In this document: piece by piece, positions 15,041-22,935 of the stretch | Layout: every line of letters begins with the position of its first letter | Position numbering within the stretch: the first letter of the stretch is position 1 | Assembly: GCA_017508975.1 (NCBI GenBank) | Contig: JAFWQU010000010.1 | Span: 1-35,910, forward strand | DNA: 35,910 nt | Direction of reading: 5' to 3' | Source: Clostridia bacterium | Lineage (GTDB): Bacteria > Bacillota > Clostridia > Christensenellales > Aristaeellaceae | Program-made: the position numbers and the translations under genes | The notes under the pieces: model-generated | What the model was told of the DNA's origin: nothing | Databases searched by the model: none | The model's input: only the letters and a program-made list of their open reading frames with translations

Positions 15041-17185
15041 ATGACCAAGCTTGCGAAGATCCTGTCCCTGGTGCTCGCGCTGACCATGCTGGCCGGTGTG
15101 GCTCTGGGCGAAGGCGCTCAGCTGGCTGCGGAAGCCCAGACTGAGGTCGACATGGACGCCTATGAGGCGACCTCCGCGGAAGTGTATGAGCTCGTCCTGG
15201 GCGAGTTCTACAAGATCTATATGGAGGCGAAGGACCCCACGATCAGCGTGTCCGAGCGTTATGCCAAGATGGCTATCGCCGAGGCCAAGCTGATGGGCTC
15301 CGCCGTCATGATCCCCCTGGAGAGCCGCGGCGGCAACTATGCGATCACCCGCATTGCGCCCCGTTCCGCCAACTCCACCCTGTGGGGCAACGACGCGGAC
15401 CGCGTGCACCAGCTCATTATCGTGAAGGAAGGCATCCTGACCTCTGAGCAGGTCAACCACCTCCGCGATCTGTGGAACGAAGTGCACGGCACCGGCACCT
15501 ACGACGGCCTGGCCAAGGCTTACCTGGCCGAGCAGGGCTACGAGCTGACCGACGTGTACAACTATGCCTATACCAGCGACCCCAACACCTGGGACGTGCT
15601 GGCCACCTCCAAGCAGGCGGACTCCCGCGCCATCATCAACACCTATGATGGCCTGTATGAGTACGACGAGGAGAACATTCAGCAGCCGGCTCTGGCCACG
15701 GGCTATACCGTGTCCGAGGACGGCAAGACCTACACCTTCACCATCCGTGAGGGCGTGAAGTGGGTCGACAGCCAGGGCCGCGAGGTCGCCGACGTGAAGG
15801 CCGACGACTGGGTGGCCGGCATGCAGCATATGTGCGACGCCGCTGAGGGCCTTGAGTTCCTCGTGACCGCCGCCGGCTGCAACATCGTGGGCGCTGAGGC
15901 CTATATCAACGGCGAGACCACCGACTTCTCCACCGTTGGCGTGAAGGCCCTGGACGACTACACCCTGGAGTACACCCTGGTTGATCCCTGCGCCTTCTTC
16001 ACCACCATGCTGGGCTACGGTGTGTTCGCTCCCATGAGCCGCGACTACTACACCTCCCAGGGCGGCCAGTTCGGCGCTGACTTCAACGCGGAAGCCGAGA
16101 CCTACCTGTATGGCAAGGATCCCGACCACATCGCGTACAATGGTCCCTATCTGGTGACCAACTCCACCGCCCAGAACACCATCGTGTTCCAGGCCAACCC
16201 CTCCTACTGGAACAAGGACCACATCAACATCCACACCGTCAACTGGTACTACAATGACGGCACGGACGCCCTGAAGGCCTACAACGACTTCAAGGCCGGC
16301 ATCCTGTGCGGCGTGGGCCTGACCTCCTCCAGCCTGGTGCAGGCGAAGGAAGACGGCCTGTTCGATGACCATCACTACATCTCCGCCACCGACGCCACCT
16401 CCTTCATGGGCTTCTTCAACGTGAACCGTCATGCGTTCGCGAACTTCAACGATGCGACCAAGGCCGTGTCCCCCCAGACTGTGGAAGACGCCGCCCGCAC
16501 CAATGCCGCGATGAAGAACATCCACTTCCGTCGCGCCCTGCTGATGAGCCTGGACCGTGGCGCCTATGAGGCCCAGTCCGTCGGCGAGGATCTGAAGTAT
16601 GCCGCCCTGATCAACTCCTACACCCCCGGCAACTTCGTGTATCTGGAAGAGGATGCCACCGTGGAGATCAACGGCGAGTCCAAGACCTTCCCGGCCGGCA
16701 CCTATTATGGCGAGATCATGCAGGCTCAGCTGGACGCTGACGGCGTCGCTGCGAAGGTCTGGGATCCCGAGACCGGCATGAGCTCCGGCTTCGACGGCTG
16801 GTACAATGTGGAAGCCGCTCAGGCTGAGCTGGCGATCGCTGTGGAAGAGCTGGCTGCCGAGGGCGTTGTGATCGACGCGGATCATCCGATCTACATCGAC
16901 GTGCCCACCTTCACCGGCTCCGAGATCTACAACAACCGTGAGGAAGCGCTGAAGCAGTCTGTGGCTGCCGCCTCCAACGGCTTCATCGTGATCAACAAGG
17001 TTGCCTGCCCCACCAGCGGTGAGTGGTACTATGCCGGCTACTATTTCAACCAGGGCCACGAGGCCAACTTCGACCTGTGCGACCTGTCCGGCTGGGGCCC
17101 CGACTACGGCGATCCGCAGAGCTATCTGGACACCATGCTGCCCGACTATGCCGGCTACATGGTGAAGGCCCTGGGCGTCTATTGA
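15041..17185 (+). CDS. oppA: Oligopeptide-binding protein, apparently circularly permuted
   Basis: This is the family 5 extracellular solute-binding protein of the importer, 714 residues. A signal peptide (residues 1-~24, LALTMLAGVALGEGAQ) lacks the lipobox Cys. Residues ~169-700 follow the normal order of the family: YTSDPNTWDVLATSKQADSR, GYTVSEDGKTYTFTIREGVKW and, near the end, GWGPDYGDPQSYLDTM. The protein then stops at once, where OppA-like proteins usually continue for 100 or more residues. That missing part seems to be at the front instead: residues ~41-148, with SERYAKMAIAEAKLMGSAVM and NYAITRIAPR, read like the family's C-terminal segment. Codon use is strongly biased, suggesting high expression. 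AGAAAGGAAAG precedes the ATG. It is first in the opp operon. Function as a peptide receptor is confident; the permutation is an inference. Confidence 0.9.
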   Translation: MTKLAKILSLVLALTMLAGVALGEGAQLAAEAQTEVDMDAYEATSAEVYELVLGEFYKIYMEAKDPTISVSERYAKMAIAEAKLMGSAVMIPLESRGGNYAITRIAPRSANSTLWGNDADRVHQLIIVKEGILTSEQVNHLRDLWNEVHGTGTYDGLAKAYLAEQGYELTDVYNYAYTSDPNTWDVLATSKQADSRAIINTYDGLYEYDEENIQQPALATGYTVSEDGKTYTFTIREGVKWVDSQGREVADVKADDWVAGMQHMCDAAEGLEFLVTAAGCNIVGAEAYINGETTDFSTVGVKALDDYTLEYTLVDPCAFFTTMLGYGVFAPMSRDYYTSQGGQFGADFNAEAETYLYGKDPDHIAYNGPYLVTNSTAQNTIVFQANPSYWNKDHINIHTVNWYYNDGTDALKAYNDFKAGILCGVGLTSSSLVQAKEDGLFDDHHYISATDATSFMGFFNVNRHAFANFNDATKAVSPQTVEDAARTNAAMKNIHFRRALLMSLDRGAYEAQSVGEDLKYAALINSYTPGNFVYLEEDATVEINGESKTFPAGTYYGEIMQAQLDADGVAAKVWDPETGMSSGFDGWYNVEAAQAELAIAVEELAAEGVVIDADHPIYIDVPTFTGSEIYNNREEALKQSVAAASNGFIVINKVACPTSGEWYYAGYYFNQGHEANFDLCDLSGWGPDYGDPQSYLDTMLPDYAGYMVKALGVY

Positions 17186-17224: not shown

Positions 17225-17249
17225 GGGGATGACGGCTTCCGTCATCCCC
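17225..17249 (+). promoter_or_regulatory. Perfect hairpin between oppA and oppB
   Basis: An 11-bp perfect stem (GGGGATGACGG, 17225-17235, with CCGTCATCCCC, 17239-17249) has a 3-base loop. No T-run follows, so it is unlikely to be a full terminator. Such stems after binding-protein genes commonly protect the upstream mRNA end and raise the ratio of binding protein to permease; that role is inferred here. Confidence 0.7.
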
Positions 17250-17276
17250 TCTGCCGATTCTGATGAGAGTGATCGC

Positions 17277-18845
17277 ATGACAAAATATCTGATTCGGCGC
17301 TTCCTGCACGGCCTGTTTTCCGTGATCGTCGTCGTCGCCATCGTGATGCTGCTGATTTACTCCTGCCTGGACCGGCAGCTGATTTTCGCGCAGGACCCGG
17401 TTTACACCCAGCTGGGCAACAACGCGAAGGTCCTGTACCAGTACCGGCGCTGGGAGTCTTTCGGCTACATCGACTATGTCCCGTATGCTGAGTGGCTCCA
17501 GGAGGTCGCGACGGCCGGGGAGATCGCTCCCGAGGAAGTCCAGGGGCTCTCCGCGATCGGCCGCAAAGCCGCCGATGACGAGGCGTCTGTGGCGTCCTAT
17601 GTCTCCCGCTTCACCCAGGAGTACGAGGCGAAGGGCTACAAGGTCATCCGCCTCGATGCGAAGCTCTCCAAGAAGAAGGTGGCGCCCGGCGGCAACCAGG
17701 CGCTTTTCGCCTATAAAGACAAGCCCCTCCTCGGCCGGCTCTGGAAGTACCTGACCGGCCTGCTTTCGGTGGACAACATCCACTATGTGCAGGAGGACGT
17801 GGGGGCGCGCGGACTGACGTTCACGCTCCACGACCCTGCCTACGGCGGGGAGAAATTCGCGCCGGCCGTGATCGGCAACGGCACGCTGCACAAGTATCTG
17901 ATCTATACCGACGGCAGGTTCCCGTTCATCCACCAGAACCTGCTCACCATCAATCTCGGCAAATCCTACACGGTCAACTCCGGCGTGGACGTGTTTGAGA
18001 GCATGAACGCGCCGCAGGGCTCTTATGTCCGCTCCACCATCACCTATCCCACGGGCCTCGTCGAGGAGAGCGCGGATGACCTGCATACCGCGACCTACGC
18101 CGCCGGCTCCCGCGAGAGCAGCCGCGTCAACATCGACCGCTTCACGGACGATTATACCGCGGTCACCACGGCCAAGAGCGGTCTGAGCCAGATCGGCTAC
18201 TCCTTCGTGATCGGTATTATCTCCTCGTTCCTCGCCTATCTGCTGAGCGTTCCGATGGGCATCGTGATGGCCCGCAAGAAGGACAAGCTGATCGACAAGA
18301 TCGGCACGATCTATATCATCTTCATCATCGCGGTGCCGTCCCTGGCCTACATCTTCCTCTTCAAGGCGATCGGCTACGCCATCGGCCTGCCGACCACCTT
18401 CAACATGGACTCCAATGACTGGCGCATGTATGTGCTGCCCATCGTCTCGCTGACGCTGCCCTCCGTGGCGGGTCTGATGAAGTGGCTGCGGCGCTACATG
18501 ATCGACCAGATGAATTCCGACTATGTCAAGTTCGCCCGTTCCGGCGGACTTTCGGAGCGGGAAATCTTCTCCCGCCATATCCTGAAAAACGCGATCATCC
18601 CGCTGGTGCACGGCATTCCCGGCACGGTGCTCGGATCCCTGGTGGGCGCCATCATCACCGAGCGCGTGTACGTGGTGCCCGGCGCCGGCAACCTGCTGAC
18701 AAAGGCCATCAATATGTACGACAACGGCGTGATCGTGGGCGTCGCCCTCTTCTACGCCTGCCTCACGGTGGTCTCCATTATCCTGGGCGATATCATGATG
18801 TCCCTGGTGGATCCGCGGATCAACTTTACATCGAAGGCGAGGTGA
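17277..18845 (+). CDS. oppB: Oligopeptide ABC transporter permease, large extracytoplasmic insertion
   Basis: A membrane subunit of the importer, 522 residues, against ~310 for typical OppB/DppB. TM1 is at about residues 10-28 (GLFSVIVVVAIVMLLIY). A ~270-residue extracytoplasmic region (about 30-300) follows, then five more membrane segments from about residue 302. The cytoplasmic EAA loop that contacts the ATPases is present (VKFARSGGLSEREIFSRHIL, about 417-436). The size and layout resemble AmiC/OppB of streptococci. The ATG at 17277 (MTKYLIRRFLHG) is preferred on protein grounds; its ribosome binding site (GAGAGTG) is weak. An upstream ATG at 17229 lies inside the hairpin. oppC follows six bases later. 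Confidence 0.93.
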   Translation: MTKYLIRRFLHGLFSVIVVVAIVMLLIYSCLDRQLIFAQDPVYTQLGNNAKVLYQYRRWESFGYIDYVPYAEWLQEVATAGEIAPEEVQGLSAIGRKAADDEASVASYVSRFTQEYEAKGYKVIRLDAKLSKKKVAPGGNQALFAYKDKPLLGRLWKYLTGLLSVDNIHYVQEDVGARGLTFTLHDPAYGGEKFAPAVIGNGTLHKYLIYTDGRFPFIHQNLLTINLGKSYTVNSGVDVFESMNAPQGSYVRSTITYPTGLVEESADDLHTATYAAGSRESSRVNIDRFTDDYTAVTTAKSGLSQIGYSFVIGIISSFLAYLLSVPMGIVMARKKDKLIDKIGTIYIIFIIAVPSLAYIFLFKAIGYAIGLPTTFNMDSNDWRMYVLPIVSLTLPSVAGLMKWLRRYMIDQMNSDYVKFARSGGLSEREIFSRHILKNAIIPLVHGIPGTVLGSLVGAIITERVYVVPGAGNLLTKAINMYDNGVIVGVALFYACLTVVSIILGDIMMSLVDPRINFTSKAR

Positions 18846-18851
18846 GAAGGG

Positions 18852-19877
18852 ATGTCTGAGACGAATAAGACGGTCAGCCTGAAAAAGGCCTCCGAGGGAC
18901 TGTACGACCTGAGCGATCTGGGCATGAGCGAGGACGAGCTGTTCAGCCATGTGGACCACTCGGCCATGGAGTCCGAGAAGATCACCGCGCCCCGGTATTC
19001 CTACTGGAAGAGCGTGTTCCGCGTGTTTTTCCGCAAGCGGATCAATATCGTGATCCTGACCCTGTTTGCGCTGATTTTGATTTTTGCCTACGTTTATCCG
19101 GCCATCATCGGGTATGATCCCACCACGGACCCCTTCAAGAATCTGATGGACTCCTCCGCCAAGCATCTGTGGCCCACCAAGGCGCTGGAGAAGTTCGGCT
19201 ACAGCATCCACTGGATCCTCGGCACGGGCAAATCGGGCGAGTCCACCTTTGACGCGATCTGGTTCGGCAGCCGGATCTCCGTCTCCATGGCCTTTATCTG
19301 CGCGCTGATCAACATGACGGTGGGCATTATCCTGGGCGCGGTGTGGGGCTTCTCGAAGAAGTTCGACCTGGTGATGATGGAGGTCTACAACATCCTCGCC
19401 AACGTGCCGTACATCCTGTTCATATCCGTTCTGGTGCTGATCTTTTCGGCGGGCTTCTGGACCATGGTGTTCGCGCTGACAATCACGGGCTGGCTGAGCA
19501 TCGCCTACTTTATCCGAACGCAGGTGATTATCATCCGCGACCGGGAGTACAACCTGGCCTCCCGCTGCCTGGGCACGCCGATCCTGCGCATCGCGATGAA
19601 GAACATCCTGCCCTTCATGACCAGCGTCATCGTGACCCTGGCCGCCACGGAGATCCCGATCTACATCTCCTACGAGGTGTTCCTCTCCTACATCGGCATG
19701 GGCATGTCGGAAATGTCGCTTGGCCGCCTGATCTACCAGGCGGAGAACGCGATGCTGACGCCGGGCTGGCAGTTTGAGTTCTGGAGCCCGGTGGCCATCG
19801 CCTCCATCATCACCGTCGTCCTCTATGTGGTCGGTCAGAACCTGGGCGACGCGTCCGACCCGAGAACCCATATGTGA
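18852..19877 (+). CDS. oppC: Oligopeptide ABC transporter permease
   Basis: The second membrane subunit, 341 residues. A cytoplasmic N-terminal stretch of ~55 residues precedes TM1 (INIVILTLFALILIFAYVYP, about 64-83). An external loop with HWILGTGKSGESTFDAIWFG (the family's LGTD.-GRD-like region) leads to the permease core. The EAA loop is LASRCLGTPILRIAMKNILP (about 236-255). The end matches the family (LGDASDPRTHM). It resembles AmiD/OppC. A GAGGTGA site (18839-18845) overlaps the oppB stop seven bases before the ATG. oppD starts nine bases after its stop. It should form the translocation pore with OppB. Confidence 0.95.
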   Translation: MSETNKTVSLKKASEGLYDLSDLGMSEDELFSHVDHSAMESEKITAPRYSYWKSVFRVFFRKRINIVILTLFALILIFAYVYPAIIGYDPTTDPFKNLMDSSAKHLWPTKALEKFGYSIHWILGTGKSGESTFDAIWFGSRISVSMAFICALINMTVGIILGAVWGFSKKFDLVMMEVYNILANVPYILFISVLVLIFSAGFWTMVFALTITGWLSIAYFIRTQVIIIRDREYNLASRCLGTPILRIAMKNILPFMTSVIVTLAATEIPIYISYEVFLSYIGMGMSEMSLGRLIYQAENAMLTPGWQFEFWSPVAIASIITVVLYVVGQNLGDASDPRTHM

Positions 19878-19885
19878 GGTGCCGC

Positions 19886-21634
19886 ATGGAAGAGAAGAAC
19901 ATTCTTTTGTCCGCCAGGGATCTGGTGGTCAAGTTCCGGGTCCGCGGCCGCATCCTCACCGCCATCCGGAGCGTTTCACTGGATATCTATGAGGATGAGT
20001 GCATCGCCATCGTGGGTGAGTCCGGCTCCGGCAAGAGCGTTTTCACCAAGACCTTCGCCGGCATGCTGGACGAGAACGGCTTTATCGACCAGGGCGAGAT
20101 CATCTTCGCCGATCCCGAGCTGGCGGACACGCATGTGGCGCTGTCCCCCGCGATCCGCCGCATGATGCAGACCGCGAAGACCCAGCTGGACGAGGCGTCC
20201 AAGCTTGAATACGGCGCGGAGACCTGGCGCGAGATGGAGCGCCTCAAGGCGGACCACGAGGCGGCGGGCAGCCTGACCGAGGAGGAGAAGCAGGCGATCG
20301 AGGACGAGATCAGCGATCTTGTTTTCCAGCGCACGGAGCTGTTCAACCTCAAGCAGACCCTGGACACCCGCAAGGAGAAGGACCGCATCCACGAGACGAC
20401 GAACCAGATCAGCGCGCTGGACGCGAAGATCAAGGCACTGCAGAAAAAGCGCGAGGAGATGATCAAGACCCGCCGCGCGCAGACGAAGCAGAACGCCCAG
20501 CTCCAGCACGACTTCCAGACGCAGATGAACGCCCTGAAGGGCAACTACGAGGATCAGATCAAGAAGGAGATCACCCAGGACCAGCGCAGCCGCAACGAGC
20601 GCCTGGCCAAGGAGATCTGCCTGTCCATCGGCCGCTACAGCAGGGTGAAGCGCTCCCGGTGCTTCCGCGACCTGCTGAAGGCGCTGCGCAGCGCCATGCG
20701 CGAGGGACAGAACCTCTCGGACGAGGAGACGCTGAACAACGTCTTCAGTCCGGTGACCTTCCGTGTGCGCTACCTGGATGAGACCCCCGAGACGCTGCAC
20801 GGCACCTGCGTGATCGACCTGGCGAAGGTCCGGGACGCCACCGACTGGACGTACATCCGCGGCACGCGCATCGCGACCGTCTTCCAGGACCCCATGACCA
20901 GCCTGAACCCGATCATCACCATCGGCAAGCAGATCACCTCCATCATCCTCAAGCACCAGCAGTGCTCCGAGGTGGAGGCCCGCAAGCGCGCGCTGGAGCT
21001 GATGATGAAGGTCGGCATTCCGAACGCCGAGAAGCGCTTCGACGACTATCCCTTCCAGTACTCCGGCGGCATGCGGCAGCGCATCGTCATCGCCATCGCG
21101 CTCTCCTGCCAGCCGAAGATTCTGATCTGCGACGAGCCCACCACGGCCCTGGACGTGACCATCCAGGCGCAGATCCTGAAGCTCCTGAAGGACCTGCAGC
21201 GGGAGTTCGGCTACACGATCGTCTTCATCACCCACGACCTGGGCGTGGTGGCGAACGTGGCGGACCGCGTGGCGGTTATGTACGCCGGGCAGATCGTGGA
21301 GGTCGGCAAGGTGGAGGAGGTCTTCTACGATCCCCGCCATCCCTATACCTGGGCGCTGCTCTCCTCCCTGCCGCAGCTGGCGCAGAAGAACACCCAGCTC
21401 TACTCCATCACCGGCACGCCCCCGTCCCTGTACAACAAGATCGTGGGCGATCCCTTCGCGCCGCGCAATCCCTATTGCATGAAGATCGACACGCTGCTGG
21501 AGCCGCCGATGTTCCGGGTGACCGATACCCACTTCGCCAAGACCTGGCTGGAGGATCCCCGGGCCCCGAAGGTGCAGAAGCCCGAGATCATTGAGAACAT
21601 CCATCAGAAGCTGATCGATGCATTCAACATTTAG
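19886..21634 (+). CDS. oppD: Oligopeptide ABC transporter ATPase with a long coiled-coil insertion
   Basis: One of the two ATPase subunits. All ATPase motifs are present: Walker A GESGSGKS (residues 44-51), Q-loop Q334 in [12 protein letters not shown], signature YSGGMRQR (392-399), Walker [13 protein letters not shown] (412-423) and switch H450. At 582 residues it is ~230 longer than normal. The excess lies between EIIF (71-74) and [16 protein letters not shown] (321-336), normally ~35 residues apart. The insertion is charged and heptad-like (about 95-245), with many Lys/Glu/Gln, so mostly coiled coil. The C-terminal oligopeptide-transporter extension is present, but the usual cysteine cluster is reduced to a single Cys ([12 protein letters not shown]). 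The ATG at 19886 has AGGTG just upstream; an earlier GTG overlaps the oppC stop. Confidence 0.93.
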
Positions 21635-21645
21635 GAGGAACGGCT

Positions 21646-22935
21646 GTGTCTGAAAACATGAGCAATAACGCCGCCCATCTGCCGGAGCACGGGCCGGTGG
21701 GGCCGGACGGCCGCGAAATCCTGCTCTCCCTGCGGAATGTGGACATCACCTTCGGCAAGGGAGACAACGCGGTGCGGGCGGTCCGCAACGCGAGCTTTGA
21801 TATCTACAAGGGCGAGACTTTCTCGCTGGTGGGCGAGTCCGGCTCGGGCAAGACGACCATCGGCCGCGCGGTCATCCGCGTGAACCCCTGCGCCGCGGGC
21901 GAGATCCTCTACAAGGGCGTCCGCATCTCGGGCAAGATCCCGCGCTCCCTGGACCGGGAGGTCATCCGCAACATCCAGATGGTCTTCCAGGATCCGGCGG
22001 CCTCGCTGAACGAGCGCGCGACGGTCGACTACATCATCTCCGAGGGCCTGTACAATTTCCATCTGTTCAACTCCGAGGCGGAGCGCGTGCAGAAGGTCGA
22101 GACCATGATCAACGAGGTCGGCCTGCTGCCCGAGCACCTGACCCGCTATCCGCACGAGTTCTCCGGCGGCCAGCGGCAGCGCATCGGCCTGGCCCGCGCC
22201 ATGGTCATGGAGCCGGAGCTGGTCATCGCCGACGAGCCCATCTCCGCGCTGGACGTGTCGATCCGCGCGCAGGTGCTGAACCTGATGAAGAAGTTCCAGC
22301 AGGAACAGAACATCACCTACCTGTTCATCGCCCACGACCTGTCCATCGTGCGCTTCATCTCCGACCGCATCGCCGTTATCTACAAGGGCGATATCGTCGA
22401 GGTGGCGGAGACGGACGAACTGTTCAACTACCCGCTGCACCCCTATACCCGCTCGCTGATCTCCGCGATCCCGATCCCGGATCCGAAGCTGGAGAAGCAC
22501 AAGCAGCTCTTCACCTACGATCCCTCGGTGCACGATTACAGCGTGGAGAAGCCCGAGCTGACGGACATCGGCCACGGCCACTTTGTCTACGGCAGCCCCT
22601 CCGAGATCAAGCAGTACCGCGCGACCCGCGAGGCCGGCGTGCCGCTCAAGTCGATCACCATCCTCCCGGAGGGAGAGGAGGCGCCTTCCTCCGTGGGCGA
22701 GACGCTGGTGGACGAGGAGTTCCTCCAGACGCCGGTGCACGACACGGGCAATGTCTGGCTGGCGGTGCTGTCGTTCTTCCTGCCGCTGCTGGGCATTGTC
22801 GGGACGCTGCTGTTCAAGAAATACCGCCATTTCCGCAACATGAAGATGTGCAAGAAGGGCACGATTCTCGGCTTCTCCGTGATCGGCGCCGTGATTGTGC
22901 TGATGGCGATCCTGCTGTTCCTCTCGACCGTCTGA
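21646..22935 (+). CDS. oppF: Oligopeptide ABC transporter ATPase with a C-terminal hydrophobic tail
   Basis: The second ATPase subunit, 429 residues. Motifs: Walker [10 protein letters not shown] (63-71), Q-loop in [16 protein letters not shown], signature FSGGQRQR, Walker [13 protein letters not shown] and the switch His in IAHDLS. OppF proteins usually end at ~310-330 residues. Here a linker is followed by ~60 residues with two hydrophobic segments (about 371-389, containing a Pro, and 405-427) separated by a very basic loop ([14 protein letters not shown]). This would tether the ATPase to the membrane; the basic loop suggests the first segment may be re-entrant. The start is the GTG at 21646, with AGGAGG (21633-21638) seven bases upstream. 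It is 11 bases after oppD and 15 before the next gene. Confidence 0.94.

Follow-up and report, generated by a model that had tools for sequence, protein, structure and literature searches.

A predicted circularly permuted peptide-binding subunit of an Ami/Opp-type importer in Clostridia

Introduction

Family 5 peptide-binding proteins are common bacterial surface receptors, and the order of segments along their chains is taken as fixed. An open reading frame at 15041–17185 on the forward strand of the window, the 35,910-nucleotide stretch of clostridial DNA analyzed here, raises the question of whether this order can be rotated in nature. The frame is uninterrupted and encodes a protein of 714 residues (P0001). 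A preliminary description proposed that its C-terminal unit had been shifted to the N-terminus. To address this question, the protein was mapped onto solved structures and family profiles, its relatives were surveyed, and the history of the rearrangement was examined in trees. The gene very probably encodes a circularly permuted peptide-binding subunit of an oligopeptide ABC importer of the Ami/Opp type (oppA-B-C-D-F).

Results

Chain order of the window protein

P0001 belongs to family 5, with a match to PF00496 (SBP_bac_5) over residues 215–701 that scored 137.6 bits against a cut-off of 32.4. It is an Ami-type peptide-binding protein in which the C-terminal unit (residues ~44–148) lies ahead of the core (residues ~170–700), so that the collinear order, core first and C-terminal unit last, is inverted. 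The motifs highlighted in the preliminary description were located at residues 71–90 (SERYAKMAIAEAKLMGSAVM), 99–108 (NYAITRIAPR), 177–187 (YTSDPNTWDVL), and 690–699 (GDPQSYLDTM). The chain ends as described, with 15 residues remaining after the last motif and residue 714 closing it, and the placement of residues ~41–148 before YTSDPNTWDVL goes beyond chance.

The single-sequence search of solved structures aligned residues 171–699 with chain positions 14–497 of AmiA (i-Evalue 1.6e-74) and residues 44–146 with positions 515–619 (i-Evalue 0.001). The printed alignments for AliB and AliC from the same search likewise comprised two stretches in inverted order. With a profile built from 42 permuted sequences, the i-Evalues of the unit were 2.5e-6 for AmiA, 2.4e-7 for AliB, 1.7e-6 for AliC, and 3.3e-7 for AliD. 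On AliD, this profile placed the core, in two pieces, on chain positions 6–499 and the unit on 503–611; the cut has thus cost no more than a handful of residues.

The canonical profile was derived from 15 unpermuted Ami-type proteins. Native P0001 matched it in two inverted stretches, with profile positions 486–587 at residues 44–148 (44.9 bits) and positions 7–468 at residues 169–700 (309.6 bits). After rotation at residue 171, a single stretch covered positions 10–587 with 359.6 bits, and of 34 points at which the chain was rotated, 151 (360.5 bits) and 171 scored highest. A normal C-terminal segment beyond residue 600, which would speak against a shift of the unit, was looked for and is absent; P0001 terminates ahead of where this unit would begin, and the next open reading frame follows 43 bases downstream. 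Each part is present once, the order is swapped, and little or nothing has been lost. The inverted matches to AmiA, AliB, AliC, and AliD, together with the rotation result, bear out the claim of the preliminary description that the C-terminal unit moved. At the level of sequence, circular permutation is the right reading. P0001, a homologue of Ami-type OppA with a probably similar function, is classed here as its permuted variant. Among relatives, the N-terminal linker is often rich in S, T, and E where a lipobox is present (by eye), and the C-terminal ends are mostly alike (..GYM.K..G(I/V)(Y/F)). The features of the gene and its operon are collected in Table 1.

Table 1. Coordinates of the segments of the permuted gene and of the downstream importer genes in the window
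Feature	Position	Strand	Basis
Signal peptide (residues 1–24), without lipobox Cys	15041..15112	+	Sequence, by eye
Variable N-terminal linker (residues 25–43)	15113..15169	+	Length and composition differ among relatives, by eye
Permuted C-terminal unit (residues 44–148)	15170..15484	+	Corresponds to AmiA chain 515–619 and AliD chain 503–611
Linker between old C-terminus and old N-terminus (residues 149–171)	15485..15553	+	Alignment of 42 permuted proteins
Core, family 5 binding protein (residues 172–700)	15554..17140	+	Structure matches, PF00496
New C-terminus (residues 701–714) and stop	17141..17185	+	AliD mapping
oppB/amiC-like permease gene, 538 aa ORF	17229..18845	+	OppB models from residue ~320 on
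oppC permease gene	18852..19877	+	NCBIfam OppC models
oppD ATPase gene, 586 aa	19874..21634	+	NCBIfam MMSYN1_0167 OppD, 718.5 bits, cut-off 740
oppF ATPase gene, 429 aa	21646..22935	+	NCBIfam OppF models

Position of the cut, linker, and anchor

In the AliD structure (PDB 8qlc), the chain number was taken as the residue number minus 25, because W498, V499, D501, I603, and N608 of its description (PMC11192437) then all fit the aligned letters. According to the available text of that source, Domain I of AliD comprises residues 29–63, 191–296, and 583–617, Domain II residues 64–190, and Domain III (lobe 2) residues 297–582, whereas alpha19 (622–652) packs against Domains I and II. The cut at chain positions 499|503 corresponds to residues 524|528 and lies within Domain III. 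Therefore, in AliD numbering, the moved unit includes the final ~55 residues of Domain III, the closing segment of Domain I, and the start of alpha19. The earlier view that this unit completes lobe I holds for the Domain I segment it contains, but the unit also takes in the end of lobe 2. The old chain ends are both placed at lobe 1, as had been claimed. On this mapping the new chain ends, including the new N-terminus, are placed in lobe 2 instead of lobe 1.

The linker of ~23 residues (~149–171) that joins the old ends is conserved as GTGTY..(W/L)(A/V)K..L..KGY in most of the 42 sequences. Furthermore, W685 and D688 of P0001 are the equivalents of AliD W498 and D501 and are invariant in all 42; in AliD, these residues are described in the available text as holding the N-terminal residues of the ligand peptide (PMC11192437).

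By eye, the window protein is without the lipobox that marks the lipoprotein anchor of Ami proteins. A lipobox-like Cys, defined as Cys after G/A/S/C within residues 9–40, was present in 63 of 80 relatives (the best of 450 encoding stretches) and absent in 17. A shift of the anchor to lobe 2 is thus predicted for most relatives, the window copy itself having no lipobox. Most of the nearest kin of the window protein also have no lipobox-like Cys; by eye, a clear lipobox is often missing from binding proteins of the window's family and present in more distant relatives.

Relatives sharing the permuted order

In 84,980 species genomes, 450 encoding stretches were detected, and the best 80 were kept. 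The search for relatives with the same order, suggested earlier as a means of dating the event, found it in all 80; the event is therefore old for the family and no recent accident. Going by public record titles, most of the kept relatives are gut-derived metagenome-assembled genomes (MAGs) of Clostridia, many of them sampled from ruminants; Roseburia inulinivorans DSM 16841, R. hominis An869, and isolates of Butyrivibrio are also represented. One title (L097) reads Erysipelotrichaceae bacterium and is given here as recorded. The next downstream hit was an oppB-like frame in 77 of the 80 and oppD in one, and two showed no further hit. Permuted Ami-type proteins also form another sub-clade (L009–L013), which is 41–42% identical to the window protein and has a linker of different sequence.

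Within the family of the window genome, a junction profile at 1e-30 matched 71 of 150 genomes with 82 hits. Twenty-two hits span the junction and are permuted, in 22 of the 150 genomes including the window's; the other 60 begin at positions 112–160, in or just before the core, and are assigned to the canonical type from these start positions. Both kinds occur together in 10 of the 22 permuted-bearing genomes. At 1e-40, the class sample (291 genomes) gave 11 matching genomes, five permuted, including the window's, and six of canonical type. The phylum sample (299 genomes, same threshold) gave seven, among which the permuted ones were the window's and G085, of the same class; the five genomes outside this class carry canonical-type hits only. 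This permuted form, hereafter type 1, is thus confined to the window's class in both samples.

Selection was assessed in seven pairwise comparisons with the window gene. In five of these (L035, L036, L037, L041, and L044), dN was lower than dS in all three parts (unit, linker, and core), the linker values being rough owing to its shortness; in the remaining two (L061 and L071), dS was not estimable. The permuted gene is under purifying selection. Additionally, the unit profile identified 13 further frames in 40 relatives, and the coordinates place the unit downstream of the core in all 13, which are classed by these matches as unpermuted Ami-type proteins. The window genome itself carries a second family 5 protein (L003, G000:C7:5097-6707) in a frame of 758 aa, with ~100 additional N-terminal residues and, by eye, a normally placed C-terminal unit.

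Additional permuted lineages

Four additional permuted lineages of OppA-like proteins were found in the same phylum, adding two more cut sites. Their members are L028, L031, L032, L033, and L159 (type 2) and L156, L157, L160, L158, L167, and L170 (types 3–5), and they adjoin opp genes wherever flanks were read. The templates for types 2–4 were OppA (PDB 8are) and DppE (PDB 8ay0), on which the two stretches jointly cover chain positions 17/18 to 508–522. In OppA 8are numbering, the cuts lie at 450|456 (type 2), 364|367 (type 3), and 287|294 (type 4); the window protein is of Ami type instead. The type 2 profile matched 8are with positions 103–552 on 18–450 and 33–97 on 456–520, a cut equivalent to that of type 1. 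For type 3, residues 210–559 of L156 map to 17–364 and residues 52–192 to 367–508. For type 4, residues 273–537 of L158 map to 17–287 and residues 41–271 to 294–522.

The type 2 junction profile, run at 1e-35 on the 291 class genomes, matched 23, and in five of these the match spans the junction: G156 carries type 2 (L159), G096, G152, and G206 carry type 3, and G128 carries type 4. A partial candidate from G218 proved canonical on reading and was rejected. Type 3 occurs in two of the three genomes of G096's order (1e-100), and type 4 in the other genome of G128's family as well, at 78% identity. Among the 299 phylum genomes, three matched; two of the matches begin in the core, and the third, in G387, is type 5 and comes from another class than the window's. 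Cuts within the first ~130 residues of the core would escape these junction profiles.

Type 5 was found in a single draft genome (75% complete), the sole member of its family in the genome set. Residues 1–27 of its protein, L170, align with the signal peptide of canonical L140 (residues 3–29), residues 31–317 with L140 residues 304–590 (70% identity), and residues 319–587 with residues 31–300 (71%); each gene adjoins an oppF-like frame. By this alignment, L170 keeps its signal peptide in place while its mature part is rotated exactly; it is the clearest case among the four additional lineages. The cuts of types 2–5 also seem, by alignment, to lie in the equivalent of lobe 2, those of types 4 and 5 near the start of this domain and close to the hinge. 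Lipobox-like signals were seen by eye in L028, L156, L158, L159, and L170. L031 and L033 have no clear lipobox (by eye).

Number of independent events

In the tree (INDEPENDENCE) built on ~270 residues common to types 1–4 and the unpermuted forms, each type formed one clade (99/96, 100/99, 99/95, and 100/100), which implies at least four changes. Type 1 was sister (97/89) to the unpermuted Ami-type proteins L014, L144, and L148, a relation left unsettled in a thinned tree to which L170–L172 were added and from which L023 and others were left out. The thinned tree, including type 5, requires at least five changes, with L170 sister to canonical L140 (100/100). These counts assume equal costs for gain and loss. 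The permuted Ami clade was recovered on the first ~270 core residues (99/96 and, with thinned rows, 96/92), whereas its support was weak in the long-core trees: 77 in one, and 68/43, beside a long canonical branch, in another from which the long-branch rows L034 and L030 had been dropped.

AU tests were run singly on six pairs of types. A single origin was rejected for types 1 and 2 (p-AU 0.014), 2 and 3 (0.005), 2 and 4 (0.016), 4 and 5 (2.6e-7), and 2 and 5 (1.4e-4). For types 3 and 4 it was not rejected (0.104); they were counted apart because their cut sites differ, and either could have been derived from the other. Similar rearrangements thus seem to have happened several times.

Discussion

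Structurally, the conserved linker of the permuted protein would bridge its old C- and N-termini, which are both placed at lobe 1, and the chain would open in lobe 2, a little downstream of the WGPDYGDP loop, which is expected to hold the N-terminus of the ligand. The same three-domain fold is expected, trapping peptides between its lobes as AmiA and AliD do. The export signal, and in most relatives a lipid anchor too, would then sit on lobe 2 and no longer on lobe 1. The permutation would most likely have begun, much as the preliminary description suggested, with an in-frame tandem duplication of the mature part, after which the outer pieces were lost. L170, rotated exactly with its own signal peptide still in front, fits such a course. 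Intermediates with a unit-core-unit arrangement were found neither in the 40 relatives nor in 125 open reading frames of 128 loci; these loci overlap, so that several frames represent one gene (the window gene itself appears as L002, L005, L115, and L126), and L008 and L125–L128 are partial genes.

Could the N-terminal 150 residues instead be a foreign, separate domain, fused to a protein that lost its true C-terminal unit? Such an origin would account for the blank in Pfam over residues 24–170 at E ≤ 1, and, in the available text, a foreign origin was weighed for the permuted TpMglB-2 by its authors (PMC4990184). However, SBP_bac_5 is a 'Middle' model and also stops before the C-terminal unit in canonical L019; because it covers the middle part only, the permutation is hidden in the Pfam architecture. 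Among the 11 NCBIfam models listed for P0001, none was above its cut-off. A foreign domain also sits poorly with the match of the unit to the C-terminal part of the canonical Ami profile and with the single contiguous match on rotation. Of 11 OppA-type frames, the unit profile matched L030 alone, with 19 bits; since the unit matches Ami-type frames and barely OppA-type ones, both parts of P0001 derive from a single family. We therefore regard fusion with truncation as very unlikely. An artefact of assembly or frame, by which neighboring genes or a mis-joined contig mimic the inverted order, might be suspected in the window genome (G000), a 66% complete draft in 26 contigs. Yet the frame is open throughout, the kept public records that share the order include isolates, and the order recurs in G701 (2 contigs) and in G085 (20 contigs, 100% complete), with dN below dS wherever it could be estimated. 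The artefact reading is so improbable that it is refuted for practical purposes.

A different concern is that the permuted fold no longer binds peptides for transport and serves, for example, as a sensor or decoy. The canonical-type Ami hits accompanying permuted ones in 10 of the family genomes would allow roles to differ. Against this, a complete oppBCDF set lies directly downstream in the window, an oppB-like frame comes next in nearly all of the kept relatives, and the ligand-clamp residues are invariant, so that this alternative, although less remote than fusion with truncation, is unlikely as well. The operon also led us to ask whether the OppA of Mollicutes shares the permuted order, because the window OppB, OppC, OppD, and OppF match MMSYN1 models best, which we take to be models of Mollicutes. 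This candidate was rejected: four of six isolated units matched the C-terminus of the NCBIfam OppA model NF043077 (784–880 of 896), and two, including the window's own unit, gave no match. A genome search with this model gave no matches in 398 genomes and likewise none in controls, so that its blank carries no information.

Circular permutation of an Ami-type protein can be set beside known systems. AmiA, AliB, AliC, and AliD of Streptococcus pneumoniae (PDB 8a42, 8qlj, 8qlh, and 8qlc) resemble P0001 in the core, the C-terminal unit, and the ligand-clamp W and D; they differ in that the parts of P0001 are inverted, its old ends are joined by a linker, its N-terminus is predicted to lie in lobe 2, and it has no lipobox. 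A natural counterpart is the 'Cluster Bc' protein TpMglB-2 (Tp0684) of Treponema pallidum. This binding protein of an ABC transporter is circularly permuted and, according to the available text, still binds sugar, has relatives in Gram-positive gut bacteria too, and was suggested by its authors to reflect adaptation to tethering (PMC4990184). The likeness lies in being a naturally permuted binding protein, which P0001 is by sequence; TpMglB-2 has a cluster B sugar-binding fold and another cut, whereas P0001 belongs to family 5 (cluster C). The 30 PDB sequences matched at E ≤ 1e-10 are, by name, peptide-, heme-, and related binding proteins, and none is named as a sugar-binding protein. In a literature search that included few subscription papers and covered no preprints, no report of a naturally permuted family 5 protein was found, and TpMglB-2, as portrayed in the available text (PMC4990184), was the only natural permuted binding protein encountered.

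More broadly, the family 5 binding proteins of Bacillota may be recurrently permuted, with at least five independent events at three cut sites (two used twice), all opening lobe 2 and thereby shifting the anchor there from lobe 1, through selection on the position of the tether relative to the permease. We put this forward tentatively and with some doubt. Provided that the fold is kept, each event would have transferred the point of N-terminal anchoring to the opposite lobe. Domain III, however, makes up 286 of about 625 residues and is so large that five cuts within it, at three sites, are only mildly unexpected. By record titles, an entire clade of Lachnospiraceae and other gut Clostridia carries the rotated chain. 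The apparently independent rotations, one with an unrotated sister that is 70–71% identical (L170 and L140), give matched pairs, a natural experiment on moving a membrane anchor and on why the tether point of a receptor matters. They also bear on how natural permutations arise and how often family models hide them, and the permuted proteins are natural scaffolds for biosensor design.

The neighboring genes have features of their own. Matches to NCBIfam OppB, OppC, OppD, and OppF models extend over 17229–22935, none of those listed above its curated cut-off, and place the permuted gene in an Ami/Opp importer context. The window OppB has a long N-terminal part outside the OppB models, as in S. 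pneumoniae AmiC, for which the available text describes a long extra N-terminal part (PMC11192437). The window OppD matches MMSYN1_0167 over residues 11–582; by eye, its P-loop and signature are separated by a long, charged stretch resembling a coiled coil. OppD frames measure 582–618 aa in L073 and in the six listed permuted loci with an oppD frame and flank, and that of the canonical L162 operon measures 364 aa. The window OppF is extended at its C-terminus by a segment in which two hydrophobic, membrane-like stretches can be seen by eye, unusual for an ABC ATPase.
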